Made by a program: the position numbers and the translations under genes. A stretch of DNA of 64,000 nucleotides, taken from positions 124,001-188,000 of the forward strand of contig JANQEK010000015.1 in the NCBI GenBank assembly GCA_028278405.1. Reading direction: 5' to 3'. This stretch comes from Nitrospinaceae bacterium (GTDB taxonomy: Bacteria; Nitrospinota; Nitrospinia; Nitrospinales; Nitrospinaceae). Within the stretch, counting starts at the first letter, position 1. Each line of letters starts with the position of its first letter. Below the pieces are notes generated by a model. That model was not told where the DNA came from, made no database searches, and saw only the letters and a list, made by a program, of their open reading frames with translations. Positions 6,941 to 63,002 of this stretch are shown here, piece after piece.

Positions 6941-7107
6941 CCATTCGCGCTTTGAATTGGGCGGAGTTAAGTAGCCGATCCTAAAGACGAAAAATACCTC
7001 TTGATCAGTTCCTGCGGGAGGGTTACCATTGGAAGGCCTATCCCGTTAAGTGGTTATTTCAGATAAGGTTACTGGAAAGCAGCGGAGAGCGGGATGGGCG
7101 GTTTGGA

Positions 7108-7305
7108 TCACTCGGAGTTGTCCCGATTGTTGTTGGTTTTTGAGTTGTCGGCGATCACAATCACCAAGCCGATAATCACGATCAGAGCGAGTACCAGCCA
7201 CATCTTGATGGTTTCCGGGCGGGAATCGAATATATCGTAACTCATTGTTCCGTCGATAATAAGGGCAAGCACAACCAGGCTTATCAGGACGGCGAATTTT
7301 TTCAA
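7108..7305 (-). CDS. Small two-helix membrane protein
   Basis: A 65-residue protein starting at TTG 7305, preceded by GAGGA eight bases away. It has two hydrophobic segments: residues 4-17, which could be a signal anchor, and residues 35-52 (MWLVLALIVIIGLVIVIA). A short polar tail is rich in Asn. I recognise no family. It stands alone, on the opposite strand to both neighbours. The sequence downstream, 6941-7107, shows no further gene. Confidence 0.5.
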   Translation of the reverse strand: MKKFAVLISLVVLALIIDGTMSYDIFDSRPETIKMWLVLALIVIIGLVIVIADNSKTNNNRDNSE

Positions 7306-7440
7306 GACGCTATTCCTCAGCTTGAGGCTTTACGGAGTTCATAACCCGTAAGGGTTGGCGGCTCTTTTGTTTCCCACAGCCTCAATCTTAATAAATATGT
7401 AAGTTATTGATGGGTTTTTGAGACTCAGTATATACTAATT

Positions 7441-7494
7441 AACCTGTTTGAATATTAACAGGTTGGAGGACTCGGTCAACAGGTTTCAGTCCTC
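7441..7494 (+). promoter_or_regulatory. Two inverted repeats upstream of hpnH
   Basis: AACCTGTT (7441-7448) and AACAGGTT (7457-7464) form a perfect eight-base inverted repeat with an eight-base spacer. GAGGACT (7466-7472) and AGTCCTC (7488-7494) form a second, seven-base one. They lie 53-106 bases before hpnH. They could be an operator or the folded 5' leader of the transcript; neither has a T tract. Confidence 0.4.
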
Positions 7495-7546
7495 GTTATT
7501 TAATCCAACAATTGAATTTCAATTGATATATCGAAAGTGATGGAGC

Positions 7547-8554: not shown

Positions 8555-8584
8555 ACTCCCGATTCCGAACCAGAAGAATCTCAT

Positions 8585-8615
8585 GCCCTTCCCTTAAAAC
8601 GGGAAGGGCTTTTTT
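8585..8615 (+). terminator. Rho-independent terminator of hpnH
   Basis: A nine-base-pair stem, GCCCTTCCC (8585-8593) with GGGAAGGGC (8601-8609), has a seven-base loop and is followed by six T. It begins 31 bases after the hpnH stop. Confidence 0.9.
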
Positions 8616-8741
8616 GTAGTCACCTGCGATTTCCACAGAAAACCCGTCCCACGAATTTAATTTAAAATTTATTGCCCCACTTCCAGGTTTTCGGTTAATC
8701 TAATATATATTTACATTTCCACAACCTGTACCCCGAATTAA

Positions 8742-27841: not shown

Positions 27842-28711
27842 TCATTCCCCCTTGGCAGTCTCGGTGCATTCGAATTCGGTTTCTGAAATCCATTGGACTG
27901 CGAGATTGTCCGGCAGTTTGGTTTTCCGGTCGATAACAGCGGTCTTCAAGTTGTCACTGGAAAGATTGGTGGCCAGTGAAAAATCCGCGCCGGCCAGATT
28001 GGCCTGGGCGAGGCGGGTTTCCGCCAGATCAGAACCCCGGACGTTGGCGCCGCTCAAATTCGCTTCCGTCAAGTCCGCCCCCTTGAAATACACCCGATTG
28101 AGTATCGAGTCTGAGAAATTTGCCCCTTTGAGATTCGCGTCCCGAAAATCGCACCCGCTCAGATTGCATCCGCTGACGTCTGTATTTTCCAGCTTGGCTC
28201 CCGAAAAATTGGCTTTGCTGAGATGGGATTTGGGGATACGGGCGCCGGACAGATCAGACTCCTTCAAAATCGCTCCCCGCAAATCACTCTTGTTGAGATT
28301 CACATTTCTAAGGTCGCAGCCTTTTAACTGGGCTTGGTTGAGTTCCGCACGGTTGAGATTCGAATCGTGAAAATCGGCTTTCAGGACAACCGCCTCGTTG
28401 AACCAGGAACTGCTGAGGTCCGTACCGCTCAGGTCGGAGCCGCTGAGATTGGTTTTGGTGAAGTTGGCGCGAATCAGTTGCGCTGATTTGAAATTGGCAC
28501 CCACCAGAAAACTGCCGGTAAAATCCGCCCCATTCAACCCGGCTTCTTCGAAGTTTGCTTTCTTGAGGTTGCATTTCTGGAATTGCGCTTCTTTAAGAAC
28601 CCCCTGGCTCAGGTCGATGCCTTCCAGATCCGCCTGGCTCAGTTTGGCTCGTTCCAGCCGGTTTTTTTGAGATTCGATTTTCTGTTTGTCCAGTTTTCTG
28701 ATTTTCGCCAC
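27842..28711 (-). CDS. Pentapeptide repeat protein
   Basis: A 289-residue protein made almost wholly of pentapeptide repeats, A(D/N)LXX, from about residue 20 to 260 (LEGIDLSQGVLKEAQFQ, LKKANFEEAGLNGADF, LSGSDLSGTDLSSSWF). Such chains fold into a right-handed quadrilateral beta-helix. Some members mimic DNA and protect gyrase, but most have no known role. The GTG at 28711 is chosen because GGGG lies eight bases upstream of it and because the extra N-terminus of the longer frame from 28801 looks unstructured. A short non-repeat C-terminal segment closes the chain. There is no signal peptide, so it is cytoplasmic. Confidence 0.85.
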   Translation of the reverse strand: MAKIRKLDKQKIESQKNRLERAKLSQADLEGIDLSQGVLKEAQFQKCNLKKANFEEAGLNGADFTGSFLVGANFKSAQLIRANFTKTNLSGSDLSGTDLSSSWFNEAVVLKADFHDSNLNRAELNQAQLKGCDLRNVNLNKSDLRGAILKESDLSGARIPKSHLSKANFSGAKLENTDVSGCNLSGCDFRDANLKGANFSDSILNRVYFKGADLTEANLSGANVRGSDLAETRLAQANLAGADFSLATNLSSDNLKTAVIDRKTKLPDNLAVQWISETEFECTETAKGE

Positions 28712-28866
28712 AAAAGTTTCCCCGCTAAAAGGGAAGAGGAGTTGCGGGTGGCCACAACTCCTCCGAAAATTCTTTGGAGCGCATCGACGGTGAGGGCTCA
28801 AATCTCAGACACACTCGTATCATTTGGACCGCGGAGGAAGCTTTTGCAAGCTCCCCCCACGGGTAG

Positions 28867-28953
28867 TGGTGCCGAAGGTCGGAGTCGAACCGACACGAGG
28901 TTGCCCTCACTGGATTTTGAATCCAGCGCGTCTACCAATTCCACCACTTCGGC
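28867..28953 (-). tRNA. tRNA-Leu (anticodon CAA)
   Basis: The class II cloverleaf is complete. The acceptor stem is GCCGAAG with CTTCGGC. The anticodon stem CTGGA/TCCAG holds the loop TTCAAAA, anticodon CAA. A variable arm follows (GAGGGCAACCTC), then the T arm GTCGGTTCGACTCCGAC. The discriminator is A and CCA is encoded (28867-28869). It lies between the pentapeptide gene and a TPR membrane protein gene on the same strand. Confidence 0.97.
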
Positions 28954-28965
28954 CTGGTTCGGAAA

Positions 28966-28994
28966 AAGTTATCACACCCCGATAAAAAGGACAA
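28966..28994 (-). promoter_or_regulatory. Probable promoter of tRNA-Leu
   Basis: On the minus strand a -35 TTGTCC (28989-28994) and a weak -10 TAACTT (28966-28971) are spaced by 17 bases, just upstream of the tRNA 5' end. The -10 match is poor. Confidence 0.35.
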
Positions 28995-29018
28995 CGGGGA
29001 AAGCCTCTGAACGGTTTT

Positions 29019-30968
29019 TTAGTGGAAATCCTGAATTTTTGGAGGTGGTTGCGATTTCTGTTGTTTCTGAAAGCGGCGGGCGGCCGTCAGTAATTGCCGG
29101 GCATTGTCGTTCTCCGGGTCGATTTCGAGCAGGCGGTTGATGTAGGTGATGGCTTGATCATATTGTTTAAACAACATACTGGAACTGACCAGATTGTTCA
29201 GGGCGTCCACGTATTGATTGTCCAGTTGATAGGCTTTTTGGAACGAAGCGTCTGCAAAATAAAAAGAATTCAGGCCCCAGAACACCATACCCATTTCGTT
29301 ATGTGCCACCGGTTGATCCGGATTGATCTGGAGACTGCCGCGATAATATTTCAAGGCTTTTCGCAATTGTTTCGATTTGCGATACGCCTGCGCCAGTGTT
29401 AAATGCCAAAGGGCCGACCCGGGAACTTCAGAGACCGCTTTTTCAAGATAGGGCACCGCTTTTTTGGGTCGTTCCAACTTCAAATAAGAGTATCCGGTTA
29501 AAAAATTCAGCGGCGGGACCTTGATACCCTGTTTATTCAATTCGTTGAACCGCTCAAGGGCTTTAGTATATTCATTTCTCTTGATATGAATTTCGCCAAG
29601 ATCAATATTTGCGCGGACGTGTTTCGAATCGAGTTCGAGGGTCGTTGCCAGTTCTTTCTCCGCCCGGTCGGTTAATCCATCGTCCAGGTAAGCTCTTCCC
29701 AAGTTGTAATGGACCCGTGCTTTGTGTGGAGAAGTCGTAGCGGTTTCCTCCCAAAGAGTCACCGCTGACCGGTAGTCCTGACCCCGGCTGAAGGTAAGAA
29801 TCATAAAAAGCGCCGGCACCCCTACCCGCAACCATCCAGCGATGGGGTGGCGGATCGCCAGTTCCACCAGGCCGATCGCCAAAATCAGGTGGACTCCCAA
29901 ACCCGGCAGGTAAAACCGGGGCTCGGACACCACCGGATCATCCATTCCTAATGAGTAAAAACTGATGAATATCAAGAGAGTCCAGAGGAAAGCCCATTGC
30001 ACCAATCCGGATCGGGTGATCCGCGTCAGCGCAAACAACCCTGCAATGGCAACCAGGGAAAACATCCAGGTCCAATCCCCGATTCCACTCACCAGGGAGA
30101 AATCGGGGTCCAGATTCAAATGCATGGGAAACAGGGTTTTGGGGAGGTAGTAAAAAATAAATGCTTTAACCTGAGTTAAGAAATACAAAGTCGACAAGTT
30201 GCCGGAACTTCTCGAATGTCCAGCCAACAGTTCGGCAGACGGTGTGGTGAGCTGGTAAATCAGATAAATGATCCAGGGAATCAGGGCCAGCGCAAATATT
30301 TCCATTTCCATCTTTTCAGTAGACGCCATATAGAATCGATAGAAAATCCATCCCATGAACGGCAAGGTAACCATCACCGGGTCACAAGTGGCTCCTGCCG
30401 TAAAACAGGCCATGACCATCAGAAGATCGATCGAGGCCTTGGCTTTTTTGGGGTCCTCTTTAAAAATTCTTAAGAAACGGGCCAGGAATCCAAACGTCAG
30501 CAAATAGAACAGGCTTGCGAAAAGTATGGGACGAGAAGAAACGAGTATGACGGCCTGGGAGTTCAGGGGATGGAGCAGATGGATTCCGGAAGCGACCCAG
30601 GGAATCCAGTTTAAATATCGGGAGTTCTTCTGCTCGAAAAAGATCAACCACTCTTGGGTCACCCAGAAAAAAGCCAGCCCCACCCCCAAGTGAATCAACA
30701 GATTCACCAGATGATAGCCCCAGGGCGCGGTATGCCCCACCCAATAATTGATTGCAAAGGTAAGCTTGGGAAGCGAACCGTTAAAAATCTGGTCGACACG
30801 GACAATGTCATTGATCCGCGAAATATCCTGAATGACCGGATCTTCCAGTAGGGTTTGAACCTCTGAAGCCAGAAAGGGCGATTGCAGGGTTGCCGCATAG
30901 GCCAGAAATCCTATTGTCAATAAGCCCAGGACCGCACGGGTGGTTTTCTTAAATGGGGAGTTTTTCAT
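29019..30968 (-). CDS. TPR-containing polytopic membrane protein
   Basis: A 649-residue protein. The N-terminal 390 residues hold about ten membrane helices with a GT-C-like first loop (FLASEVQTLLEDPVIQDISR) and TPR-linked layout like the eukaryotic TMTC proteins and bacterial PMT_2-TPR proteins. The C-terminal 230 residues are six or seven tetratricopeptide repeats (ARVHYNLGRAYLDDGLTDRA, HVRANIDLGEIHIKRNEY, PVAHNEMGMVFWGLNSF). The C-terminus is rich in Gln, Pro and Lys. The ATG at 30968 is preferred over a TTG 12 codons upstream; neither has a clear ribosome site. A protein glycosyltransferase role is possible but not shown. Confidence 0.8.
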   Translation of the reverse strand: MKNSPFKKTTRAVLGLLTIGFLAYAATLQSPFLASEVQTLLEDPVIQDISRINDIVRVDQIFNGSLPKLTFAINYWVGHTAPWGYHLVNLLIHLGVGLAFFWVTQEWLIFFEQKNSRYLNWIPWVASGIHLLHPLNSQAVILVSSRPILFASLFYLLTFGFLARFLRIFKEDPKKAKASIDLLMVMACFTAGATCDPVMVTLPFMGWIFYRFYMASTEKMEMEIFALALIPWIIYLIYQLTTPSAELLAGHSRSSGNLSTLYFLTQVKAFIFYYLPKTLFPMHLNLDPDFSLVSGIGDWTWMFSLVAIAGLFALTRITRSGLVQWAFLWTLLIFISFYSLGMDDPVVSEPRFYLPGLGVHLILAIGLVELAIRHPIAGWLRVGVPALFMILTFSRGQDYRSAVTLWEETATTSPHKARVHYNLGRAYLDDGLTDRAEKELATTLELDSKHVRANIDLGEIHIKRNEYTKALERFNELNKQGIKVPPLNFLTGYSYLKLERPKKAVPYLEKAVSEVPGSALWHLTLAQAYRKSKQLRKALKYYRGSLQINPDQPVAHNEMGMVFWGLNSFYFADASFQKAYQLDNQYVDALNNLVSSSMLFKQYDQAITYINRLLEIDPENDNARQLLTAARRFQKQQKSQPPPKIQDFH

Positions 30969-31262
30969 ATTTTGCGATTTATTAGCATTTCTCAAATACC
31001 CCAATTGAGGGCATATTAACGTTTAAGAATTTTTGATATTTTGCTCCAAAAATATTAAAAAATGTTTACAATGATTAATTAGGTATAAAAATTTTATAAA
31101 TAGGAAATTTATTTGCTCGAACCCTATACGCTCTTGCCAGCTAAATCACCGTTTTATAAATAAATTAGGCAATATCTACGGGTAGATATAAATTTCCAAT
31201 CTGTATTCTTTTTTAACAAAAATTTTATCTTTTAAGGGCTCCGTTCCAATCCGCATCGAATT
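30969..31262. other. AT-rich intergenic region between divergent genes
   Basis: About 290 bases, strongly AT-rich, separate the TPR membrane gene and the GAF-type activator gene. It has several TATAAA-like and TTTACA-like boxes on both strands but no pair with convincing spacing. It should hold the promoters of both genes. No open reading frame or hairpin terminator is seen. Confidence 0.5.
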
Positions 31263-32750
31263 ATGAAACAAATTAACGAGTATGCCAACATACTGACTCT
31301 GAGAAAGATTTCATCGCTGTTTAAGTCCACCTTCCGGAACGTGGATGAATTGTTGAATATTGTTCTGGAAACCGCCCAGGTTACCGTCGGGGCACAATAT
31401 GCTTCGTTGCTGATGTTGGATGAAAAAACCAACAAACTGCAGTTTTACCAAGCCTCGGGTGAAGAAACCGGACAGTTGAAACTGGTGGAAATTCCTCAGG
31501 GTGTCGGTCTCGCAGGTATCGTGGCCGAAACCGGCGAAGCCATTGTATCCAATGATGTGCAAAACGACAAACGCTGGTTGAGCGAAGTCAGTGAAATGGC
31601 AGAGATTGAAGTCAAAGCGATTGCTTGTCTTCCTCTGTCTCTGAACGGGGTGGTTATCGGTGTGGTTCAGTTCCTGGACAAGCAGGATGCCAGCATCTAT
31701 TCCGAAAGTGATATGGAAATCCTGAGCCGCTTTGCCAGGATCATGGCGATGTTTTTCGAGGTGACCCGTAGCAATGAGATCCTGGGAGAAGAGTTTGGCC
31801 GGCTCCAGGAGAAATACCGGCAACGCTATACAATCGTGGGAGAGAGTCCACAAATTCGCAAGTGCATCACCCAGGCTGAAAAGGTTTCCAACTCTAAAGC
31901 GTCCGTTCTGATCACTGGAGAAAGCGGTACGGGGAAGGAATTGTTTGCCCACCTGATTCATGACCGCAGTCTGCGCCAGACCAAACCTTTTGTGTCCATC
32001 AGTTGCGGCGCCTTACCGGCCTCGATTCTGGAACGCGAATTGTTCGGGCATGAAAAAGGAGCCTTTACCGGGGCGGACAGCCGGAAAATCGGCCTGTTTG
32101 AAGCTGCCGACGGCGGCACTTTGTTTCTCGACGAGATTGGTGAAATGCCGCTCGATATGCAAGTCAAGCTGCTTCGGGTGATCCAGGAAGAATCCTTTAT
32201 ACGTCTGGGCGGCACCGCACCCACCGAGGTGGATGTTCGAATCATTTCAGCCACCAACCAGGACTTGGAAAAAATGGTGGGAGAGGGCACGTTCCGTCAG
32301 GATTTGTTTTACCGTATCAACGTCATCAATCTCCATTTGCCTTCACTCAGGGAACGCAAGGAAGATATTCCGGATCTGGTTAACTTCTTCATCAAGAAAC
32401 ATACCCCTGAAGGACAGAAACCTAAAAAAGCTCAAAAAGGGTTGATCTCGTTTCTTGAAGGTTATGGCTGGCCGGGGAATATCCGCCAATTGGAAAATGC
32501 CCTTGAGCGTGCCATTGTTCTGGAAGAAGGAGAGGAGTTGACTCCGGATGCCTTTGCCATCGAGTCCACCCAGTCTCCCATCGAAATCAATGTGGGTTCC
32601 ACCTTGAAGGAAGCCAGCGACTCTTTCAGAAAATCTTTTATTTTCAATACCCTTCAATCGACCAAAGGGAACCGGACGCAGGCCGCAAAGATTTTAGAAG
32701 TCCAAAGATCCTATCTTTCCCGGTTGATCAAGGAACTGGGGATCAGCTGA
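31263..32750 (+). CDS. GAF-type sigma-54-dependent transcription activator
   Basis: A 495-residue activator. The N-terminal GAF sensor domain covers about residues 20-170 (ASLLMLDEKTNKLQFY, GLAGIVAETGEAIVSNDVQN). The AAA+ domain follows with Walker A GESGTGKE (about residue 219), the sigma-54-contacting loop GAFTGA (residues 266-271), DGGTLFLDEIGEMP and the arginine-finger region. A Fis-type helix-turn-helix ends the chain (TKGNRTQAAKILEVQRSYLSRLIKEL). The NifA/NorR-like layout means it senses a small molecule directly and does not need phosphorylation. It is a candidate activator of sigma-54 promoters such as that of fliK, but nothing in the sequence links the two. Confidence 0.92.
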   Translation: MKQINEYANILTLRKISSLFKSTFRNVDELLNIVLETAQVTVGAQYASLLMLDEKTNKLQFYQASGEETGQLKLVEIPQGVGLAGIVAETGEAIVSNDVQNDKRWLSEVSEMAEIEVKAIACLPLSLNGVVIGVVQFLDKQDASIYSESDMEILSRFARIMAMFFEVTRSNEILGEEFGRLQEKYRQRYTIVGESPQIRKCITQAEKVSNSKASVLITGESGTGKELFAHLIHDRSLRQTKPFVSISCGALPASILERELFGHEKGAFTGADSRKIGLFEAADGGTLFLDEIGEMPLDMQVKLLRVIQEESFIRLGGTAPTEVDVRIISATNQDLEKMVGEGTFRQDLFYRINVINLHLPSLRERKEDIPDLVNFFIKKHTPEGQKPKKAQKGLISFLEGYGWPGNIRQLENALERAIVLEEGEELTPDAFAIESTQSPIEINVGSTLKEASDSFRKSFIFNTLQSTKGNRTQAAKILEVQRSYLSRLIKELGIS

Positions 32751-32801
32751 AAAAGTGTCTCCTTAATCCAACATGGACAGTAACCAAGACAGGGTGCCGG
32801 T

Positions 32802-33659
32802 ATGAAACTGAGCCATCCACAGGACCTGATCAGCGCAAATGATGAATCCATTTTCTCATTGCCGAAAATATACTTCGAACTCCAGGAAGCTCTGAAAGAC
32901 CCCGACAAAACGTTTCAGGAGCTGGGCGAAATCATCGCATTCGATCCGGCTCTCTCCGCGCGTCTGCTGAAAATCGTCAACAGTCCGTTTTACGGGTTTC
33001 CCTCCCGGATCGAAACCATTTCCCACGCCATTTCAATCATTGGCATGCATCAGCTCACCGATCTGGCTCTGGCAACCATGGCGATTCATCAATTCCGCGG
33101 TATCCCCAACAACCTGTTCAATATGGAAAAATTCTGGCGGCACAGTATCGCCTGTGGTGTGGCGGCCCGGTCGATTGCCGACTTTCGAAACGAGAAAAAT
33201 ACTGAGCGGTTCTATCTGGCGGGCATCCTCCACGACATCGGGCGGTTGGTGATTTTCAAAAATGAACCGGCCATGGCCCGGGACACCTTTTACCGGAGCA
33301 AAGAAAGAAAAGAAAACATTTACCTGTCTGAACAGAAGTTGATGGGTTTCGATCATGCTGATGTCGGCCGGGAGCTGTTGAAGACCTGGCAACTGCCGCC
33401 GCGTTTGGTGGAGGCGGTGGGGGGTCACCATCAACCTCAAAACGTAAAAACCTTTCCTATCGATGCGGCCATTATCCACACCTCCGATTACATTGTTCAT
33501 GTTCTGGGCATGGGAAGCGACGCCGAGTTCAGCGAGCCGCAGCTTTTTCCCAAAAGCTGGGAGATCATCGGGCTCAGCCCGGACGATTTTGAATTTATGA
33601 AGAGCAAGGTGCAGCAGCAGTACGAAGGGATTGTCAGCCTGTTTTTTGACGCTTCCTGA
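32802..33659 (+). CDS. HDOD domain protein
   Basis: A 285-residue protein with an HDOD domain over about residues 15-215: LSARLLKIVNSPFYGFPSRI, SHAISIIGMHQLTDLALA, AGILHDIGRLVIF, HADVGRELLKTWQLP. HDOD domains are found in signalling proteins, and most are not active phosphohydrolases. This one keeps LHDIGR and HADVG. No other domain is attached. It follows the sigma-54 activator by about 50 bases on the same strand and may share its transcript. The function is not known. Confidence 0.85.
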   Translation: MKLSHPQDLISANDESIFSLPKIYFELQEALKDPDKTFQELGEIIAFDPALSARLLKIVNSPFYGFPSRIETISHAISIIGMHQLTDLALATMAIHQFRGIPNNLFNMEKFWRHSIACGVAARSIADFRNEKNTERFYLAGILHDIGRLVIFKNEPAMARDTFYRSKERKENIYLSEQKLMGFDHADVGRELLKTWQLPPRLVEAVGGHHQPQNVKTFPIDAAIIHTSDYIVHVLGMGSDAEFSEPQLFPKSWEIIGLSPDDFEFMKSKVQQQYEGIVSLFFDAS

Positions 33660-33856
33660 AGACCCACAGTTTTAATTCTCTCCCCTATTTCAAAAACTTG
33701 CGGATCAAATTGCATTCCCGATTCCGGGTTTTTCGAATCCCTGTTTCCGAAAAAACAATCGATTCTGACTTCCCCTCTCACATTTATTGCCGGTTCTGGT
33801 AAGATGGGGCCGCTGGAGCAAACCCAATTGACTTTTAAAAGAAGAATGGTGGAGCG

Positions 33857-34714
33857 ATGGATGTGATGACTTTGATCGACGGTAAAAAAGTTTCGGCGGA
33901 AATCAAAGAGCAGGTCGCCGAAGAAGTTGGAAAACTGAAACAGCAGACGGGTAAAGTTCCCGGACTGGCAGTCGTGCTGGTGGGGGAGGACCCCGCTTCC
34001 GCGGTATACGTCAAAAACAAAAATAAAACCTGCGAAAAAATGGGATTTCAAAATTTATCCCACACTCTTTCGGCCGATACCAAAGAAACCGAACTGCTGA
34101 AATTGATCGAACAATTGAACGCCAACCCGGAAGTGAATGGGATTCTCGTACAACTGCCGCTTCCGGATCATATCAATGAACAGAAAGTGCTGGAAGCGAT
34201 CGATCCGAAAAAAGACGTCGACGGTTTTCATCCGGTCAACGTCGGTTATCTCACCAGCGGCGGCGATGCGCTCGCGCCCTGCACGCCGGCGGGTATTATC
34301 GAGATGCTGGACTTTTACAATATCGATATCGAAGGCAAAAGTGCAGTGATTATTGGGCGCAGCAATATCGTCGGCAAACCCATGGCGTCTTTGCTGCTGA
34401 AACGCAATGCCACCGTTACCATCTGCCATTCGCGTACCCGCGATCTACCCGCCGTGGCGCGGTCAGCAGATATTCTCGTCGCGGCTATCGGGAGGGCCCG
34501 TTTCGTCACTGCCGATATGGTGGGGGAAGGCGCAACGGTTATCGACGTCGGCATCAACCGGGTCGATGGCAAATTGGTCGGGGATGTTGATTTTGACGCG
34601 GTGGCGGAGAAGGCTGCCTATATCACACCCGTGCCCGGCGGCGTCGGACCCATGACGATCGCCATGCTGATGAAAAATACTTTAAGCGCCTTCAAAAAAG
34701 CTAACAACCTTTAA
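33857..34714 (+). CDS. folD: Bifunctional methylenetetrahydrofolate dehydrogenase/cyclohydrolase FolD
   Basis: FolD interconverts methylene-, methenyl- and formyl-tetrahydrofolate. The 285-residue protein has the family signatures [20 protein letters not shown] (with the catalytic lysine), [37 protein letters not shown] and [16 protein letters not shown]. Its length is normal. The start could also be the GTG at 33863 or the ATG at 33866, since GGAG lies only two bases before 33857. It begins the operon folD-xseA-xseB-tlyA-dcd. Confidence 0.96.
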
Positions 34715-34732
34715 ACGTATGCTTCGCAATTT

Positions 34733-36109
34733 ATGACCCAGGCCCAACCCAAATCCGTAGGACACATTCCAGAAGAACAACCGCACGTCTATACCGTCAG
34801 CGAGATCACGCGTGACGTACGGGCGATCCTCGAAGCGGCGTTTGAAAATGCGTGGATCGAAGGCGAGATTTCCAATTTCCGCACTGCAGCTTCCGGTCAC
34901 GCCTATTTCGTGTTGAAAGATGATAAAGCCCAGATCAAATGTGTCCTGTTTCGTGGACATCGGGCGGGAATGAAATTCACGCCGGAGGATGGCGATCAGG
35001 TGCTGTTGTTCGGGCGGGTTACGGTATACGAGGCGCGCGGCGATTACCAGGTTATCGTCGAAGCCATGGAACCCAAGGGCCTCGGCGCATTGCAAAAGGC
35101 GTTCGAACAGCTCAAGGAAAAACTGGCGAAAGAGGGTCTGTTCGACGAGGCGCGTAAACAATCGCTCCCGGAAATCCCGTGGAAGATCGGCATCGTGACC
35201 TCCCCCACTGGCGCTGCGATCCGGGACATGCTTCATGTCATTCAACGACGGAATCCGAAGACCTCGGTACTGCTCTATCCCGCAAAAGTGCAGGGCGAGG
35301 GATCGGCAGAGGAAATTGCCCGGGGAATCAAGGAACTGAATAAGCGGAAAGATATCGACGTCCTCATCGTCGGACGCGGCGGCGGGTCTATCGAGGACCT
35401 GTGGGCCTTCAATGAAGAAGCCGTCGCCCGTGCCATCGCGCAATCCAAGATTCCCGTGGTGTCCGCTGTCGGCCATGAAATTGATTTCACCATCGCCGAT
35501 TTTGTCGCCGACCTGCGTGCGCCGACACCCTCCGCAGCGGCAGAGCTGGTGGTACCGAAGCTGAATGACATCGTGCAGGATCTGCAATATCTCACCAATC
35601 AGATGATCGAACGGATGATAGAGGATATTGAAGATTACCGGGAGCGGTTGCGGTATCTGATCGATCGACGGTTTTTCCGGGAACCGCGCCAGATTCTGGA
35701 AACGCCGGCACAACGTCTCGACGAAATAATGCAGAGGCTGTTGCGGGGTCTCGATCAGTGGGTGATGGTCAAACGCGGCAACCTGAAACAAACCGTTCAT
35801 CGCCTGTTTCGAGCCTCCCCCGGCGGTAAATTAAAAATTCTGTCGGAACGGCAAAACGATTTGATTGCACGTCTGGTGCGTCGGATGGAATCACAGATCC
35901 GGCTTCGAAAAGAGAAACTGGCAGGCACGGCAAAAAGTCTGGATGCCCTGAGTCCTCTCAACGTATTGCACCGGGGTTATAGTATTACCACTTCAAAAAA
36001 GACCGGCAAGGCGGTTACTTCCGGCAAACAGGTGAATAAAGGCGACACTGTGCGTATCCGTCTGGCTAAAGGCCAGCTGGACGCTACGGTGGATGAAACG
36101 ATAGAATAG
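34733..36109 (+). CDS. xseA: Exodeoxyribonuclease VII large subunit
   Basis: The 458-residue protein has the OB-fold at residues 18-115 (YTVSEITRDVRAILEAAF, AYFVLKDDKAQIKCVLF) and the catalytic domain with IGIVTSPTGAAIRDMLHVI, VLIVGRGGGSIEDLWAFNEE, VVSAVGHEIDFTIADFVADL and RAPTPSAAAELVV, then a long helical region and the C-terminal beta domain (VLHRGYSITT). With XseB it degrades single-stranded DNA from both ends. It starts 18 bases after folD and is followed 17 bases later by xseB. Confidence 0.96.
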   Translation: MTQAQPKSVGHIPEEQPHVYTVSEITRDVRAILEAAFENAWIEGEISNFRTAASGHAYFVLKDDKAQIKCVLFRGHRAGMKFTPEDGDQVLLFGRVTVYEARGDYQVIVEAMEPKGLGALQKAFEQLKEKLAKEGLFDEARKQSLPEIPWKIGIVTSPTGAAIRDMLHVIQRRNPKTSVLLYPAKVQGEGSAEEIARGIKELNKRKDIDVLIVGRGGGSIEDLWAFNEEAVARAIAQSKIPVVSAVGHEIDFTIADFVADLRAPTPSAAAELVVPKLNDIVQDLQYLTNQMIERMIEDIEDYRERLRYLIDRRFFREPRQILETPAQRLDEIMQRLLRGLDQWVMVKRGNLKQTVHRLFRASPGGKLKILSERQNDLIARLVRRMESQIRLRKEKLAGTAKSLDALSPLNVLHRGYSITTSKKTGKAVTSGKQVNKGDTVRIRLAKGQLDATVDETIE

Positions 36110-54693: not shown

Positions 54694-54885
54694 CTAGAGG
54701 CCGCCCGGAATGTGGTCGTCGTCCTTGCGTTCGATTTTTGAAAGCCGTTCTTCCGTGGTTTTTTTAACCGAGTCGAGTGTGCGGTCCATTTCCTTCATTT
54801 TGTCCACCATCCACATCAATTCATCCATCGTGAACTTGCCTTCGGATTTAACTTTGGTCTTTAAAACATCATAAGTCAGTCCCAT
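54694..54885 (-). CDS. Small protein of unknown function with strong ribosome site
   Basis: A 63-residue protein starting at the ATG at 54885, preceded by GGAGGTG, one of the strongest ribosome sites in the window. The chain is charged and helical (LMWMVDKMKEMDRTLDSVKK, TTEERLSKIERKDDDHIPGG) with no membrane segment, so it is probably a cytoplasmic helical or coiled-coil protein. I do not recognise a family. Confidence 0.6.
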   Translation of the reverse strand: MGLTYDVLKTKVKSEGKFTMDELMWMVDKMKEMDRTLDSVKKTTEERLSKIERKDDDHIPGGL

Positions 54886-55259: not shown

Positions 55260-56498
55260 ATGCGGCCTGAGGACCGTATTGTCATTACAGGAATCGGCCT
55301 GACAGCGCCCAACGGCAACTCGCTGAAGGAATTCCGCAAGAGTCTGCTCGAGGGACGTTCCGGCGTCACCCGCTTTGAGACCCGTTTCATGGGCGAAGTG
55401 CTGGCCGGGGTGTGCGATTTCGACGAACTCAAATATCAAAAAAAGAAAAGTCTCCGGCGCGGTACCCGCGCGGGTTCGATCGCCATCTACTGTTCGCAGG
55501 AAGCCGTGGCGGATTCCGGAATCGCCTTCGACACGGTCGACAAATCCCGTGTCGGCGTCTATCTCGGTACCACCGAGCACGGCAATGTGGAGACGGAGAA
55601 CGAAGTTCACGCCATCAGCAAATACGACTACGATACCAAGTACTGGTCGCATCACCACAACCCGCGGACCGTGGCCAACAACCCGGCGGGTGAAGTGACA
55701 CTCAACATGGGCATCACCGGACCGCACTATGCTATCGGGGCGGCCTGTGCGGCAGGCAACCTGGGCATCATCCAGGGGGCGCAGATGCTGCGGTTGGGCG
55801 AGGCGGATCTGGCTCTGGCCGGTGGCGTTTCCGAAAGCATTCACACCTTCGGCATTTTCGCCAGTTTCAAGAGCGAGGGAGCATTGGCTGAGCACTCGGA
55901 CCCCGTCAAGGCAAGCCGTCCGTTCGACAAGAACCGCAACGGTATTGTGTGTTCCGAAGGTGGATGTGTCTACACCCTCGAGCGCCTGTCGGATGCGGAG
56001 GCCCGGGGCGCAAAAATTTATGGGGAAATCATAGGGCATGCCAGCAACTCGGACGCCTTTGACTATATCCTCCCGGAGCCGGGCAGGCAGGCTGAATGCA
56101 TGCGGCTGGCGCTGGACCGCGCCGGCTTGAAACCGGAGGATATCGATATTCTCAATACCCATGCCACCGCCACCCAGCTGGGTGATATCCAGGAAAGCAA
56201 GGCGGTGCGCGACGTATTCGGCATGGAGGGCCGCACACGAATCAATAATACAAAGAGTTATCTGGGGCATACCATGGGGGCGGCAGGGGCGCTGGAGTTG
56301 ACCGGAAATCTGCCGGCTTTCGAGGACGGCTATGTTCACCCGACCATCAACCTTGACGAAATCGACCCGGAATGCCAGCTCAAAAACCTGGTGGCGAACA
56401 CGCCGGAGCTGCTGGATAACGTGAGTATTATCATGAACAATTCGTTCGGAATGTTCGGCATCAATTCCGTCTTGATTGTCCGTAAATACCAAAAATAG
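55260..56498 (+). CDS. Beta-ketoacyl-ACP synthase (FabF-like)
   Basis: A 412-residue ketosynthase of the FabF/KASII type with a full active site: the nucleophile C163 (AIGAACAAGNLGI), the histidines H301 (NTHATATQLGD) and H337 (YLGHTMGAAGAL), and the lysine in NTKSYLGH. It should condense an acyl chain with malonyl-ACP. It is diverged from a housekeeping FabF (HATAT rather than HGTST). It heads a cluster with an ACP, two FAD oxidoreductases, a ketoreductase, a dehydratase and an enoyl reductase, so it probably serves a dedicated product. The start has no strong ribosome site. Confidence 0.9.
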   Translation: MRPEDRIVITGIGLTAPNGNSLKEFRKSLLEGRSGVTRFETRFMGEVLAGVCDFDELKYQKKKSLRRGTRAGSIAIYCSQEAVADSGIAFDTVDKSRVGVYLGTTEHGNVETENEVHAISKYDYDTKYWSHHHNPRTVANNPAGEVTLNMGITGPHYAIGAACAAGNLGIIQGAQMLRLGEADLALAGGVSESIHTFGIFASFKSEGALAEHSDPVKASRPFDKNRNGIVCSEGGCVYTLERLSDAEARGAKIYGEIIGHASNSDAFDYILPEPGRQAECMRLALDRAGLKPEDIDILNTHATATQLGDIQESKAVRDVFGMEGRTRINNTKSYLGHTMGAAGALELTGNLPAFEDGYVHPTINLDEIDPECQLKNLVANTPELLDNVSIIMNNSFGMFGINSVLIVRKYQK

Positions 56499-56552
56499 TC
56501 TTGAAATTCAGGTAGTTTTGGCCTACCATCAAACTTTAGGAGAACGCGCCGA

Positions 56553-56816
56553 ATGACCAGGGAACAAGTTCGACAAGCCATCCTCAATATCATCTCCGAC
56601 ATTGCTCCGGATGAAGATTTAGGTTCCATCAAAGACGAAGAAAAACTGAGAGACCAGTTTGATCTGGACTCGATGGATTTCCTCGATATCGTGATGGAAC
56701 TGCGTAAACGCTTCAATCTGGAAGTGCCTGAAAAGGATTACCAGGAACTGGTGTCAATGGCGAGCAGTGTCGAGTATCTGTTCCCGCGCCTGAAAGACGA
56801 CGAATTGGTCAGTTGA
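56553..56816 (+). CDS. Acyl carrier protein
   Basis: An 87-residue acyl carrier protein with the phosphopantetheine site LDSMDFLDIVMELRKRF; the modified serine is S40. It is a little longer than the housekeeping AcpP, with DEDLGSIKDEEKLRDQFDLD before the site. AGGAG precedes the ATG. It sits 54 bases after the ketosynthase and probably carries the intermediates of the cluster. Confidence 0.93.
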   Translation: MTREQVRQAILNIISDIAPDEDLGSIKDEEKLRDQFDLDSMDFLDIVMELRKRFNLEVPEKDYQELVSMASSVEYLFPRLKDDELVS

Positions 56817-56912
56817 AGCCGTTTCGGGATTTTTCCCGGCCTTCCCTGCGATACCGACCCCCTACCGCTCACGCGGTTTACTTGATTCCCAGCCTCAATT
56901 ACAATCAAGACC

Positions 56913-58325
56913 ATGAACTATGACGCCATCATAATTGGCTCCGGTCTGTCCGGATTAGCCGCGGGTATTCGTTTGGCGATGTTCGAAAAAAAGGTTTTGA
57001 TCGTCGAAAAACATGTCGAAGTCGGCGGCCTCAATTCTTTTTATACCCGCAAACATCGCACATTCGACGTGGGCCTGCACGCGATGACCAATTACACGCC
57101 GAAGGGCGTGCGCACGTCTCCGCTCGGCAAACTGCTTAAGCAATTGCGTTTCAAGCACGATGAGTTTCGCCTGTGTCCTCAGGAAATGTCTGAGATACGT
57201 TTTCCCGACAAATCACTCCGGTTCACCAACGAATTCGAATTTCTGGAGCAGGAAATCGCCGAACAGTTTCCATCTCAAGCGGACGGATTTCAGAAGCTGC
57301 TCACCCATATCCGCGAGTTCAACGAGTTGGATCTGGACGACAGCAAACGCATTTCCTCCCGCGAGGTGTTGGAATCTTGCCTGACCGACCCCGTCCTGGT
57401 TGACATGCTGTATTGCCCGATCATGTACTACGGGAACGCGGCGGAAGGCGATATGGATTTCTACCAGTTCGTGATCATGTTCAAGAGTATATTCATGGAA
57501 GGGTTCGCGAAACCTGTCGGCGGCATGCCTTACATCCTGAAACTGATGGTCGACAAGTACAAGAGCCTCGGCGGTGAATTGCGTATGGGGGCGGGAGTGC
57601 AAAGCATCGCGCACAAAGACGGCGAATTGGAATCCCTTCAACTCGAGAATGGTGAAACACTGAAGGCGGACAAGGTCATTTCTTCCGCCGGGATTGTCGA
57701 AACCCTGAGATTATGCCGCCCGCAAATTGGAGGAGAAACCGAACTGGAAATCGGCCGGATGTCGTTTATCGAGTCGATCTTTGTGCTGGACCGTATGCCG
57801 AAAGAGGTGGGGTATGACAAGAGCATCGTGTTTTACAGCACTGAGCCTCACTTCAAGTATCGCGTTCCCGGGGGATTGACCGATGTCACCAGCGGCGTTT
57901 TATGCTGCCCCAACAATTTTCAGTATCCGGAAGCCCCGTCCGAAGGGGTGATCCGCCTCACCAATCAGGCCAATTTCAGCCTTTGGGACCAGATGGCCCG
58001 CTCCGACTACCGGGCGGCCAAGAAGGAATACCGGGAACGGGGGGTGAATGCGTTGTTGACTTATTTCCCCGATTTCAGCGATCATATTATATATATTGAC
58101 TCTTTTACGCCCAAGACCATATTCAAATATACCGGCCACCTCAATGGGGCTGTGTATGGTTCCCCTACCAAAATAAAAAGTGGGCGGACCCCCGTAAAAA
58201 ACTTATTTATTTGTGGGACAGATCAGGGATTTTTGGGTATCATTGGGGCGACATTGAGCGGAATTTCAATGGCTAACCTGCATATTCTACAAGCGGAAGC
58301 CAAATCGGAATATGGGAGAATTTAA
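56913..58325 (+). CDS. FAD-dependent oxidoreductase, phytoene desaturase/CrtISO type (first)
   Basis: A 470-residue protein with the N-terminal FAD-binding motif [18 protein letters not shown] followed by [14 protein letters not shown], and the C-terminal FAD segment [20 protein letters not shown]. The layout is that of phytoene desaturases and carotenoid isomerases. No phytoene synthase or other carotenoid gene is here; the neighbours are fatty-acid-type enzymes, so the substrate is probably an acyl chain on the carrier protein. Its TAA stop overlaps the ATG of the next oxidoreductase by one base. Confidence 0.82.
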
Positions 58326-59776
58326 TGGCTAAAGACTGGCTGAAGGGCATCAAGTCGGCTTACGATACGATTATTATCGGCAGTGGTTTGGCAGGCTTGA
58401 CGGCTGCCAACAAACTGGCAAAACTGGGACACAAGGTCCTGATTCTTGAGCATCACTACAATTTGGGGGGACTGGCCACCTGGTTCAAGCGCAAGGGCGG
58501 CCATATTCTGGATATTTCCCTCCACGGTTTCCCCACCGGGATGATCAAGACCTGCCGCAAATACTGGACCAAGGAAATCGCCGATTCTATCGTCCGTCTC
58601 AAAAACATCCGCTTCGACAACCCGCAATTCTCCTTCTGGACCAACTTTGATAAAAACGATTTCACCCGCTTGATGAAAGACCGGTTTGGAATCGTCAAGG
58701 AAACCATCGACGAATTCTTCAAAACCGTACGGGCCATGAATTTTTATGACGACCTGTCCATGACGACCCGCGAACTGTTCGAAAAGTTTTTTCCCGGCCG
58801 GACCGATGTCCATCGCCTGCTCATGGAGCCCATCACCTACGCCAACGGCTCCACTCTCGATGATCCGGCGATCACCTATGGCATTGTGTTTGCCAATTTC
58901 ATGGACAAGGGAGTATATACCTTTAGAGGCGGTACCAACGAGCTGATCAAAAAAATGAAGAAGGAGTTGCTGAAAAACGGCGTCGATATCCGCACCCATT
59001 GCATGGTCGACCGCGTCGTGGTGGATGAAGGCAAAACGGTGAAAGGGGTGGAGGTCCATGGACGGATGATTCCAGCCAAAACCGTTCTTGCCAACTCGAA
59101 TATTTTAAGCACGATCCACAAACTGATCGGAGACGAGCATTTCTCACCGGAATTCCTCAAGGCAGTTAAAAAAGTCCGGTTGAATGACAGTAGTTGTCAG
59201 GTTTATATCGGTATCAAAAAAGGCGAAAAGATTGATAACGTCGGGGATCTGTTGTTCACTTCCCAGGAAAAGGAATTCAGTTCGGAATCTCTCCTGGAAC
59301 CGGAGACTTCCAGCAGGACGTTCAGCTTTTATTATCCGGAAACCCGGCCGGGCTTGAACATGTATTCGATCGTAGCGTCGACCAACGCGCGGTTCAAGGA
59401 CTGGGCTCATTTGACCCGTGAAGAATATGAAAAGAAAAAGAAACGCCTGATCGACCGGACGCTGGATGCCCTGGAAAAATATGTTCCCGATGTGCGCGCA
59501 AAAATTGATCACCTGGAAGCCTCCACTCCGATGACCTTCAAACGCTATACCGCACATCCCGGCGGTGTATCTTTCGGGACCAAGTTTGAGGGGCTTGCTA
59601 TCAGTAAGGACCTTCCCAAGCAGATTGCCGGACTGTTTCATGCCGGTTCGGTGGGGATTATCATGTCCGGCTGGTTGGGTGCGGCGAATTACGGAGTGAT
59701 TGTTTCCAACGAAGTGGATAAATTTTTGCACTCCGTGTGTGAGCCCGAACCCGAACTGGAAACCGTTACGGCATAG
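58325..59776 (+). CDS. FAD-dependent oxidoreductase, phytoene desaturase/CrtISO type (second)
   Basis: A 483-residue relative of the preceding protein with [20 protein letters not shown] and [20 protein letters not shown] at the N-terminus, [20 protein letters not shown] in the middle, and [20 protein letters not shown] at the C-terminus. The two share fold and motif order but differ in most residues, so they probably act on different steps or as a heteromer. Translation is coupled to the first one by the TAATG overlap. Confidence 0.82.
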
Positions 59777-59852
59777 TTTCTTCCCGCGGAGCGTTCATCC
59801 AACACTTTAGTTGTTTGTTTTATCTTTCCTTCTTCTGACCAACCCATCTATT

Positions 59853-60596
59853 GTGAATTTTGATTTTAAAGATCAAACGGTGATTGTAACCGGTGGCACG
59901 CGCGGAATCGGTCGTGGAGTGGCCGAAGCCTTTCTCGCCGCAGGAGCGCAGGTGATTGCCACTTACCGGTCCAACACCTCTGCCGCGCAGGAATTTCAAA
60001 AGGCCAACGCCGCCTGCAAGGACCGGCTCCATCTCAAGCAATTCGACGTTTCCGAGCCCAACCAGGTCGTTGAGTTTTTCAAGGACGTGGAGGAAAATTT
60101 CAAACAGTTCGAGGTTCTGGTGAACAATTCTGGAATACGTCGCGACTCCATAGTGGGAATGATGCCGGCAGAGGATTGGGATGAAGTCATCCATACCAAC
60201 CTGTCCGGAACCTATCATATGAGCAAATTGGCGGTACAACAATTGATGCGGCGCAAGTATGGGAGAATTATCAACATCACCTCTCCTATCGGGCGGTACG
60301 GTTTTGCCGGGCAGGCCAATTACGCTGCTAGCAAGGCGGGGCAGGAGGCGTTTACCCGGTCCCTGTCCAAGGAAGTGGCCAGCCGGAATATCACAGTGAA
60401 TTGTGTCTCCCCCGGATTCATTGATACTGATTTCATCGCCGATCTACCTGAAGACCAGAAGAAAAAATACCTGGGCCAGGTTCCTGTGAAGCGCTTTGGG
60501 ACGGTGGAAGAAGTGGCGCGTGCGGTGTTGTTCCTGGCGGACCGCGACTCGGCTTATATTAACGGAACGGTTTTGGAAATCACAGGTGGTTTATGA
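59853..60596 (+). CDS. 3-oxoacyl-ACP reductase (FabG-like)
   Basis: A 247-residue short-chain dehydrogenase. The GTG at 59853 is chosen because the sequence then starts NFDFKDQTVIVTGGTRGIGR, as FabG proteins do. The catalytic Ser-Tyr-Lys set is present (ITSPIG, Y157 and K161 in YAASK), and the C-terminal EITGGL is usual. It reduces a beta-ketoacyl-ACP to the hydroxy form. Its stop overlaps the next gene (ATGA). Confidence 0.9.
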   Translation: MNFDFKDQTVIVTGGTRGIGRGVAEAFLAAGAQVIATYRSNTSAAQEFQKANAACKDRLHLKQFDVSEPNQVVEFFKDVEENFKQFEVLVNNSGIRRDSIVGMMPAEDWDEVIHTNLSGTYHMSKLAVQQLMRRKYGRIINITSPIGRYGFAGQANYAASKAGQEAFTRSLSKEVASRNITVNCVSPGFIDTDFIADLPEDQKKKYLGQVPVKRFGTVEEVARAVLFLADRDSAYINGTVLEITGGL

Positions 60597-61024
60597 CACA
60601 GGATACTATTCTGAATACCATTCCTCATCGTCCTCCGTTTCTGTTTGTCGACGAAATTGTTGAGCAAACGGAGGATCACATCGTGACCCGCAAGCGCGTC
60701 GGTCCAGAGGAACCGTTTTTCAAGGGACACTATCCCGATTACCCGATCATGCCCGGCGTGTTGATCTGTGAATGCGTGTTCCAGTCCGGCGCCTTATTGA
60801 TGTCGAAAAAATTCCCGACCCCCGATGGGAAGGTTCCTGTTATGTCGAGGATTCAAAACGTCAAGTTTAAGAATCCCGTTTATCCCGGTAGTGTGTTGGA
60901 AATCCGTGCGGACTATGTGGAGAACGTTGGACCTGCGCATTATATGAAAGGCAAAGTACAGGTAGAGGGTCAAACCGCGGTGACAGTGGAATTCACCGTC
61001 ATGCTCATGGAGGAAAAACTGTGA
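60593..61024 (+). CDS. 3-hydroxyacyl-ACP dehydratase (FabZ-like)
   Basis: A 143-residue hotdog-fold protein: [14 protein letters not shown] at the N-terminus, then [20 protein letters not shown], with the catalytic pair H46 and E60 spaced 14 residues as in FabZ. It dehydrates a hydroxyacyl-ACP to the enoyl form. It overlaps FabG at its start and the enoyl reductase at its stop (GTGA). Confidence 0.92.
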
Positions 61025-61824
61025 GCTTTCTCGGCCTTGAAAACAAGACCATTCTGGTAACGGGCGTCGCCAACAAAAAAAGTGTTGCGTACCATATCGG
61101 CAAAACCCTCGAAGCCGAAAACGCCAACGTTCTTTACAGTGTTCGATCCGAGAAGCGCAAAGCCAGCGTCGTCAAGATCATCGATCCGGCGCGAACTTTT
61201 GTCTGCGATGTGGAGAAGGACAAAGATATCGCCCGTCTGAAAAAGGAGATATCTAAGAAGACCGACGTTTTACATGGTTTGGTACATTCCATTGCGTTTG
61301 CCAATTTTTCTGAAGGATTGAAACCGTTTCACGAAACGTCGAAGAAGGATTTTCTGCAGTGCGTGGATATTTCCTGCTATTCGCTGACCAATTTGGCAAA
61401 TGCGTTTAAAGACTTGTTCGATCCCGATGCTTCGGTGGTGACGATCTCCATTTCGACGACACGCATGGCGGCGGAGAATTACGGTTTCATGGGCCCTGCC
61501 AAGGCCGCTCTCGATTCATCGCTGTGTTTTCTCGCCAAATCATTCAGCGCGTTTTCCAAAGTGCGCTTCAATTCCGTCAATGCCGGATTGTTGAAATCCT
61601 CCGCCTCGGCGGGTATCCCCGGTTACATCGATTCCTACCTGCATGCCGAACAATCGACCCTGCGTAAGCAGGCGCTGACCACTCAGGAAGTCGCCAATGC
61701 CGCTGTATTTTTGCTGAGCGAACGGTCCAGCGGCATCAACGCCCAGGGCATCGTCCTCGACGCCGGCATGTCGACCAACTACTTCGACAAAGACATCGTC
61801 AAGAAAGCTCAGAGACCCGATTAA
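61021..61824 (+). CDS. Enoyl-ACP reductase-like SDR (FabI-like)
   Basis: A 267-residue protein of the FabI group of short-chain dehydrogenases: [20 protein letters not shown] at the N-terminus, [10 protein letters not shown], and the catalytic tyrosine and lysine with six residues between them (Y154 and K161 in YGFMGPAK). E. coli FabI has a second tyrosine ten residues before this one; here that position is Ile. The enzyme would reduce the enoyl-ACP double bond, but the change suggests an altered substrate or a changed role. It starts at GTG overlapping the dehydratase stop. Confidence 0.85.
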
Positions 61825-61826: not shown

Positions 61827-62915
61827 TTAGTTGTCTGAATCCGGGAATAGTTTTTGCTGACGGTTATGCGGATTGCGGAAGTGCTCTGTGGTAAGAGACG
61901 GGCCGCCGCTGTCAAAACCGTTACGTTTGCGGGCTTGTTGAAACAAATCCTGGATTTGCCGTGCGTACACACCTTCTCCCCTCATGCGTGATCCAAACCG
62001 GGAATCGTTCAATTCTCCTCCACGGATTTCCCGCAGACGGTTTAACACTTTGTTCGCCTGAGTGGGAGTGTGGGTTTCCAGCCACTGAGTGAATAGAGCT
62101 TTCACACCATACGGCAGCCGCAGAATAACATTGCCCGCGAATCGGGCTCCAGCACTTGCAGCTTTCTGTAACAGATGCGGAATCTCATGATCGTTGAGCC
62201 CTGGAATGATCGGAGCGGTCATCACCCCAACCGGAATACCGGCCTGGGATAACGTGCGAATAGCCTCCAGTCGTTTCTCCGGAAGAGGAGCGCGGGGTTC
62301 CAATTTACGCGACAGGTGATTGTCCAGAGTGATGATGGACAGGTAGACGGCGGCGCAGTCCCACTGAGCCAACTCCGCTAGCACATCCACATCGCGGGTG
62401 ACCAGATGGTTTTTGGTAACGATAGCCACAGGATTGCGAAAACGCAAAGCCGTCTCCAGGCAACGCCGGGTCAGTTTCAGTTGGCGTTCAATGGGCTGAT
62501 AGCAGTCGGTCACACCCGAGAAGGCGATGACCTGGGGGTTCCATTTTTTTGAAGCCAACTCTTTCTCCAGGAGTTCTGGAGCTTTTTCTTTGACCAGTAT
62601 TTTGGTTTCGAAGTCGATTCCGGCCGACAACTCAAAATATTCGTGAGTGGGTCGGGCATAGCAATAAGCGCATCCGTGCTCGCAACCGCGATAGGGATTG
62701 AGGCTCACATTAAGCGGAATGTCAGGACTGTCATTGGTGGAAAGGATCGAGCGGGAGGTATCCTTCAGAAAAATCGTTTGCGGTGCGGGACCTTCGGGAT
62801 TGTCCAGCCAGTCTTCCTGTGTCGAGCGTTCAATGGGTTTAAAGCGGTTGGCAGGATTTAAAGAGGCTCCACGGCCGTGAACGGGTTTTAATGCATTTGA
62901 GTTCTCCGTAGACAT
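61827..62915 (-). CDS. SPL-family radical SAM protein (PA0069-like)
   Basis: A 362-residue radical SAM protein of the Rv2578c/PA0069 group. The cluster motif is NPYRGCEHGCAYCYARPTHE. The motifs GVTDCYQPIERQLKLTRRCL, IVTKNHLVTRDVDVL, PIIPGLNDHEI and RFGSRMRGEGVYARQIQDLF are typical. It is related to spore photoproduct lyase but its reaction is not known. The ATG at 62915 is preferred over a TTG four codons earlier. It converges with the enoyl reductase (two bases apart). Confidence 0.85.
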   Translation of the reverse strand: MSTENSNALKPVHGRGASLNPANRFKPIERSTQEDWLDNPEGPAPQTIFLKDTSRSILSTNDSPDIPLNVSLNPYRGCEHGCAYCYARPTHEYFELSAGIDFETKILVKEKAPELLEKELASKKWNPQVIAFSGVTDCYQPIERQLKLTRRCLETALRFRNPVAIVTKNHLVTRDVDVLAELAQWDCAAVYLSIITLDNHLSRKLEPRAPLPEKRLEAIRTLSQAGIPVGVMTAPIIPGLNDHEIPHLLQKAASAGARFAGNVILRLPYGVKALFTQWLETHTPTQANKVLNRLREIRGGELNDSRFGSRMRGEGVYARQIQDLFQQARKRNGFDSGGPSLTTEHFRNPHNRQQKLFPDSDN

Positions 62916-63002
62916 AAAACCTGGCAAGCATTTGAGTCAAACTTTATCTGAGGGCGACAGCGATCATTGAAGGCGGTTCCAGTTCCACTCCCTGCCCAGG
63001 GC

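Follow-up and report, generated by a model that had tools for sequence, protein, structure and literature searches.

Two described systems come closest to the locus reported here. One pairs the Ole proteins with Pfa, a megasynthase with FabA-type dehydratase domains. In Shewanella the C31:9 hydrocarbon is the Ole product of a Pfa-derived 16:4 chain and is lost in pfa mutants, and in this genus as in Geobacter bemidjiensis Pfa acts as a dedicated chain supplier, sometimes encoded adjacent to the ole genes, that feeds head-to-head condensation by OleABCD (PMC6463001, PMC4882568). Pfa-like clusters have been reported alongside ole in 44 of 80 genomes (PMC3098273). The other system comprises the type II fatty acid synthesis (FASII) clusters of Kuenenia stuttgartiensis and Desulfotalea psychrophila, which combine type II fatty acid genes with two phytoene-desaturase-like genes (PMC2649909). 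D. psychrophila makes C31:8 and C31:9 hydrocarbons, has such FASII clusters and has no polyketide synthase (PKS)-type polyunsaturated fatty acid (PUFA) synthase; an anaerobic FASII/CrtI-type PUFA route was already proposed there (Rattray et al, 2009; PMC2649909). Here we describe a seven-gene cluster in a window of 64,000 nucleotides from contig JANQEK010000015.1 of a Nitrospinaceae bacterium (genome of 3.16 Mb), which most likely represents a new supplier module for Ole and a variant of this already proposed kind of pathway.

The cluster encodes, in one direction, a ketosynthase (KS), an acyl carrier protein (ACP), two CrtI-type flavoenzymes (Crt1 and Crt2) and three further enzymes, in the order KS-ACP-Crt1-Crt2-FabG-FabZ-FabI. 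Pfam assigned the seven proteins to ketoacyl-synt, PP-binding, Amino_oxidase (twice), SDR (twice) and FabA-like families; with NCBIfam added, they are named as a FabF-like KS, an ACP, two Amino_oxidase/CrtI superfamily proteins, a FabG-like SDR, a FabZ-like dehydratase and a FabI-like SDR. The catalytic residues of KS, ACP, FabG, FabZ and FabI are intact, and a GxGxxG motif is present in both Crt1 and Crt2. The original prediction, made from the sequence of the window, had described these genes with their order and active sites, and the listing of open reading frames (ORFs), the Pfam families and our residue checks bore it out on both counts. Unlike Pfa, this locus encodes separate enzymes together with two CrtI-type flavoenzymes.

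The cluster is conserved. Among 13 other Nitrospinota loci, seven hold all seven genes in order, four are cut by a contig end and two depart from the arrangement: L040 (genome G010) has no KS or ACP in place, its KS lying about 58 kb away, and L042 (genome G009) has no FabZ and FabI in the stretch. Applying a presence threshold of E ≤ 1e-60, we identified Crt2 in 58 of 77 Nitrospinota genomes, including 28 of the 31 of best quality, and in 305 of the 372 genomes obtained by an order-level search of Opitutales centred on G078, the genome of locus L016; some of these are just 0.6–1.1 Mb long. Because gene order is kept in relatives and Crt2 occurs in 58 of 77 genomes, the cluster is more than a chance assembly. 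The cluster KS shares 66–72% identity with the KS of nine Opitutales blocks and 36–38% with the closest KS outside the cluster in six genomes. FabG was not found in the 19 Opitutales loci that were fetched, which were not sampled at random, preference having been given to high-scoring matches and long contigs. Three Opitutales genomes of 0.6–0.7 Mb, perhaps incomplete (G270, G225 and G263), retain both Crt2 and OleA.

The decisive context lay outside the view of the original prediction: Ole genes are present at other sites in the genome, and other bacteria have them in the same block as the cluster. In locus L016, Crt2-FabZ-FabI is followed by genes for an OleA-type thiolase and an OleB-type hydrolase, and we therefore searched for Ole genes across the genomes. 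The genome of the window has OleA, OleB-like, OleC and OleD genes. OleA and the adjacent OleB-like gene lie on contig C1, which also carries OleD at a distance of about 50 kb, and C16 carries OleC. OleA and OleC exceeded the cut-offs of NF006720 (436 versus 285 bits) and NF006754 (725 versus 478 bits), respectively. The next best models for OleC were olefin beta-lactone synthetases (622 and 567 bits, under the cut-offs of 900 and 850), and a search of the PDB with this protein at 1e-60 returned no match. The OleB-like protein scored 147–185 bits on haloalkane dehalogenase models, below their cut-offs, and OleD is 54% identical to that of the deep-branching Nitrospinota genome G001, which scores 374 and 369 versus 580 on OleD models. 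The NACLG motif of OleA aligns with NACLA of PDB entry 3row, which we take to be Xanthomonas OleA and in which the aligned cysteine is presumably catalytic. A plasmid search with OleA returned no match at 1e-30.

Across Nitrospinota, OleA was found in 48 of 77 genomes, OleC over its cut-off in 51 and OleD in 53; none of 14 control genomes had OleC over the cut-off. Crt2 and OleA occurred together in 44 Nitrospinota genomes, Crt2 alone in 14, OleA alone in 4 and neither in 15, and all 58 Crt2-bearing genomes had at least one of OleA, OleC and OleD. At the thresholds used, 14 of the 77 had neither Crt2 nor any of these three genes, and five had an Ole gene without Crt2. For Opitutales, where OleA was the only Ole gene searched, 296 of 372 genomes had it; 282 had both OleA and Crt2, 23 Crt2 alone, 14 OleA alone and 53 neither. 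Two of the 14 with OleA alone were examined, and both have Crt1.

The two gene sets are also physically linked. Distances were taken from the best-scoring matches listed (126 OleA rows and 140 Crt2 rows), and 96 Opitutales genomes were present in both; in 65 of these, OleA and Crt2 lie on the same contig, in 63 within 8 kb and in 59 within 4 kb of each other. Among the 19 fetched Opitutales loci, 12 carry Crt2-FabZ-FabI-OleA-OleB and nine of these the full KS-ACP-Crt1-Crt2-FabZ-FabI-OleA-OleB block without FabG; in one further locus OleC-OleD lies near Crt2. In G001, close to the end of a contig, OleC-OleD also stands immediately upstream of the cluster KS. Based on the Opitutales blocks and this OleC-OleD-KS arrangement, linkage of cluster and Ole occurs in two phyla, and we regard the tie between them as well supported. 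Ole genes are already in print for Opitutae (PMC5673642) and for a Nitrospina metagenome-assembled genome (PMC10176705), and a review mentions earlier descriptions of the fatty acid profiles of Nitrospina (PMC5516240). Searches of open-licence literature, which omits many papers, turned up no printed record that connects a FASII cluster of the CrtI type with Ole; the word “oleA” does not occur in PMC2649909, and “Opitut” is absent from the text of PMC3098273. Two side observations concern Nitrospinota loci. In locus L035, a gene resembling MsbA-type ABC transporters by eye (positions 6935–8662) stands directly upstream of OleA-OleB; it is retained in the Nitrospinota loci L036, L037 and L041, with no match in L039. 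G001 contains four tandem ketosynthase-like matches (contig C10, positions 28051–35960), which might form a second polyketide locus of type II.

The distribution of Pfa offers a further comparison. Using the PfaA model TIGR02813 (cut-off 1010 bits), we identified PfaA over the cut-off in one of 77 Nitrospinota genomes, G070, where the protein scores 894 bits, or 1077 with its neighbours in frame; it was found neither in the genome of the window nor in any of the 372 Opitutales genomes. Weaker PKS matches were seen in four more Nitrospinota (273–287 bits) and in 31 Opitutales genomes (best 872 bits). In G070, OleA and OleC are present together with part of OleD at the end of a contig and an OleB-like ORF recognised by eye, and neither Crt1 nor Crt2 was found. 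The OleA of G070 is 40–46% identical to those of four Crt2-bearing Nitrospinota; these four in turn share 46–54% identity with their counterparts from five Crt2-bearing Opitutales. No such cross-phylum pattern was seen for OleC. This suggests an exchange of the Crt-type cluster for Pfa, and no more than suggests it, since it is one case in one genome.

Taken together, we propose, with a probability of roughly 0.6, that the cluster is a dedicated type II acyl-ACP synthase that supplies a probably polyunsaturated chain to Ole for production of a long-chain olefin. KS, ACP, FabG, FabZ and FabI would run the elongation cycles, and Crt1 and Crt2 would most likely use flavin chemistry, without oxygen, to set, shift or turn double bonds of the acyl-ACP, standing in for the dehydratase/isomerase domains of Pfa, while FabI would remove unwanted double bonds. 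OleA would receive the resulting chain, probably polyunsaturated and about C16 long, and condense two such chains head to head, and OleD, OleC and OleB would complete a long-chain polyunsaturated olefin of the C31:9 type. We infer the chemistry of Crt1 and Crt2, the chain length, the degree of unsaturation and the actual product, and polyunsaturation of a C31:9-like kind is suggested by the Pfa exchange in G070 and by the hydrocarbons and FASII clusters of D. psychrophila. A 2010 Ole paper reportedly found C31:9 in an Opitutaceae strain, which, if correct, would be strong support for this reading. More tentatively, and somewhat short of an even chance in our judgement, the cluster could represent an oxygen-independent type II PUFA synthase, with two CrtI-type flavoenzymes replacing the Pfa dehydratase/isomerase domains, that is dedicated to OleABCD across most Nitrospinota and Opitutales and makes an unrecognised share of bacterial polyunsaturated hydrocarbons.

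Several observations weigh against this proposal. Cluster and Ole are unlinked in the genome of the window and in G010, which is one contig, and seven of the 19 fetched Opitutales loci have no OleA-OleB beside Crt2, six of them showing no Ole gene in the stretch with the queries used. Among the 372 Opitutales genomes, 23 have Crt2 without OleA and 14 the converse. G018, which is 97% complete, has OleA, OleC and OleD without Crt1, Crt2, the cluster KS or PfaA, through either true loss or an assembly gap, and in G040, G053 and G060 (76–84% complete) an Ole gene likewise occurs in the absence of both Crt1 and Crt2. Two genomes counted as having neither, G061 and G052 (59–61% complete), hold pieces of OleC below the cut-off. 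The Fisher p-values for co-occurrence ignore shared ancestry, and we do not build conclusions on them; the PfaA searches scored only up to two or three candidates per genome. Finally, Ole is able to use ordinary fatty acids (PMC6463001), so the link to Ole does not in itself imply polyunsaturation.

Some of these observations would also fit a cluster whose product is an unsaturated fatty acid destined for membrane phospholipids, with Ole drawing on the same pool and the hydrocarbon arising as a by-product. Such a role would accommodate the 23 of 305 Crt2-bearing Opitutales without OleA, the 9–14 of 58 Crt2-bearing Nitrospinota without a given Ole gene (though none is without all three) and the separation of cluster and Ole in the genome of the window and in G010. 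We nevertheless consider it unlikely, given that OleA-OleB stands right behind Crt2-FabZ-FabI in 12 of the 19 fetched Opitutales loci and that Pfa appears to take the place of the cluster in G070. It is less likely still that the special chain supplied to Ole is saturated, branched or mono-unsaturated, with the CrtI-type enzymes working as reductases or saturases and yielding an olefin that is not polyunsaturated. The CrtI superfamily does include saturating enzymes, and the block contains a FabI-like reductase; however, the alternative partner of Ole in G070 is a polyunsaturated-type synthase, and D. psychrophila makes C31:8 and C31:9 with genes of a similar type (PMC2649909).

The original prediction had drawn an analogy with ladderane lipids, for which the combination of FASII and CrtI-type genes common to anammox clusters (PMC2649909, PMC4790861) would speak. 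As described in PMC2649909, the K. stuttgartiensis and D. psychrophila clusters carry radical SAM (S-adenosylmethionine), SAM methyltransferase and CoA-ligase genes and have FabI elsewhere, and those of K. stuttgartiensis carry deviant KS genes; in the KS of the window C163, H301 and H337 are intact. The hallmark genes of the anammox clusters, that is, radical SAM/B12, SAM methyltransferase, CoA-ligase and cysteine-less KS, are all missing from the seven-gene block, and the one radical SAM gene adjacent to it, which is convergent, was not found in the loci of 13 relatives, several of them short. We therefore reject membership among ladderane clusters and retain it as a distant analogy; a ladderane or other cyclised lipid is a very improbable product. 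Least probable of all is a pigment or polyene pathway of the aryl-polyene kind, which single-module type II genes with CrtI-type enzymes might suggest, as the block has one KS only and an enoyl reductase and its partner genes are Ole. Aryl polyene clusters and the clusters termed “ladderane” by antiSMASH resemble the locus in their type II sets of KS, ACP, ketoreductase and dehydratase; they use KS pairs and are not known to have FabI or paired CrtI enzymes.

Crt1 and Crt2 belong to the same superfamily as CrtI, CrtD and CrtISO and differ from them in scoring 64–99 bits against curated cut-offs of 238–587 and in forming their own supported clades. Crt1 scored 93.9 bits on TIGR02730 (cut-off 586.9) and Crt2 99.1 bits on TIGR02733 (cut-off 549.7); on TIGR02734 (cut-off 238.1) the two proteins scored 64.3 and 78.1 bits, and three annotated CrtI proteins scored 542–772 bits on the CrtI model. 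A tree of 53 flavoenzymes comprised 21 Crt1, 24 Crt2 and, from the plasmid searches, the three annotated CrtI and five unlabelled proteins, with long branches and without characterised CrtISO, CrtD, anammox or Desulfotalea proteins. In it, Crt1 and Crt2 form two separate clades (support 100/98 and 100/99) apart from the three CrtI, and an inner branch (93/81) separates Crt1 and the five unlabelled plasmid proteins from Crt2 and the CrtI proteins. Because they are only about 25% identical to each other, sequence comparison identifies Crt1 and Crt2 as old paralogues. The plasmid search for their relatives returned distant CrtI-superfamily proteins only; that with the cluster KS returned ordinary-looking FabF only (best 37.6%). 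By profile comparison, Crt2 comes closest among solved structures to 4rep (gamma-carotene desaturase) and 4dgk (phytoene dehydrogenase), and the predicted structures of both flavoenzymes are poor (mean pLDDT 55.0 and 48.7).

The curated cut-offs and the tree disfavour a carotenoid-enzyme reading of Crt1 and Crt2. The statement of the original prediction that no carotenoid gene is present stands for the eight proteins of 55.3–62.9 kb covered by the family searches, ORFs having been listed for 48–64 kb. CRTISO enzymes isomerise double bonds using reduced flavin, which makes the role proposed for Crt1 and Crt2 plausible. Two anammox CrtI-type proteins made no lycopene in E. coli (PMC4790861), consistent with non-carotenoid roles for such enzymes. 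Overall, the dedicated ACP-based chain-building unit is supported, as is, by the curated cut-offs and the position outside the three CrtI references, the non-carotenoid nature of its CrtI-type enzymes; the ladderane-type product is the part of the earlier interpretation that is not supported.

The features of the cluster are listed in Table 1. With the listed ORF starts, the gene junctions are, in order, +54, +96, −1, +34, −4 and −4 nt. The overlaps and short gaps described originally are seen, with one probable correction between Crt2 and FabG: the FabG ORFs of relatives match over about 244–248 residues, which suggests that FabG starts at the GTG rather than the TTG codon and that the gap before it is 76 nt. 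A promoter scan (9 sites versus 5.9 expected) and a terminator scan (5 versus 9.6 expected) were uninformative.

Table 1. Genes of the cluster, with positions in the window.
Feature	Position	Strand	Basis
KS, beta-ketoacyl-ACP synthase, FabF-like, 412 aa	55260..56498	+	C163/H301/K332/H337 intact; family models
Acyl carrier protein, 87 aa	56553..56816	+	S40 in DSM motif; family models
Crt1, CrtI/CrtISO-superfamily flavoenzyme, 470 aa	56913..58325	+	Under curated carotenoid cut-offs; GxGxxG
Crt2, second CrtI-superfamily flavoenzyme, 483 aa	58325..59776	+	About 25% identity to Crt1; GxGxxG
FabG-like ketoreductase	59853..60596 (listed ORF start TTG 59811)	+	Y171-x3-K175; probable start (GTG) from relatives
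FabZ-like dehydratase	60593..61024	+	H46/E60; family models
FabI-like enoyl-ACP reductase	61021..61824	+	Y154-x6-K161; far under FabI equivalog cut-offs

The genome of the window has two further KS genes (37% and 30% identical to the cluster KS), which disfavours the cluster as the sole fatty acid synthase of the cell, as do the 14 of 77 genomes with neither Crt2 nor any of the three Ole genes at the thresholds used. The nearest solved sequences to FabZ are 7qv0, 8ayc, 8ayb and 8ayi (E 5e-25 to 6e-24; other FabZ 3e-21 and weaker), which are presumably FabZ of a ladderane producer and would then speak for the ladderane analogy. On the minus strand at 61827–62927, convergent with the cluster and 2 nt after FabI, lies the radical SAM gene mentioned above, of the PA0069 family (NF033668, 478.9 bits, cut-off 360). 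We reject it as a member of the cluster, as it is without a match in the 13 relatives' loci scanned, several of which are too short to tell. A 63-aa ORF (54694–54885, minus strand) between ispF and KS is 84–92% identical in loci L007 and L009; a scan of the 11 remaining loci, several of which do not extend over this region, gave no match.

The formation of C31:8 and C31:9 without Pfa has been a standing question since the 2009 report on D. psychrophila, and the cluster is a concrete candidate for it. It may explain how bacteria without the known enzyme make such long-chain hydrocarbons and, Opitutales being an order with cultured members, the candidate is testable in a laboratory strain. If the proposal is true, CrtI-type enzymes would gain a role on acyl-ACP chains, which bears on the role of their anammox counterparts, and Nitrospinota, a main group of marine nitrite oxidisers, would be tied to the production of long-chain hydrocarbons.

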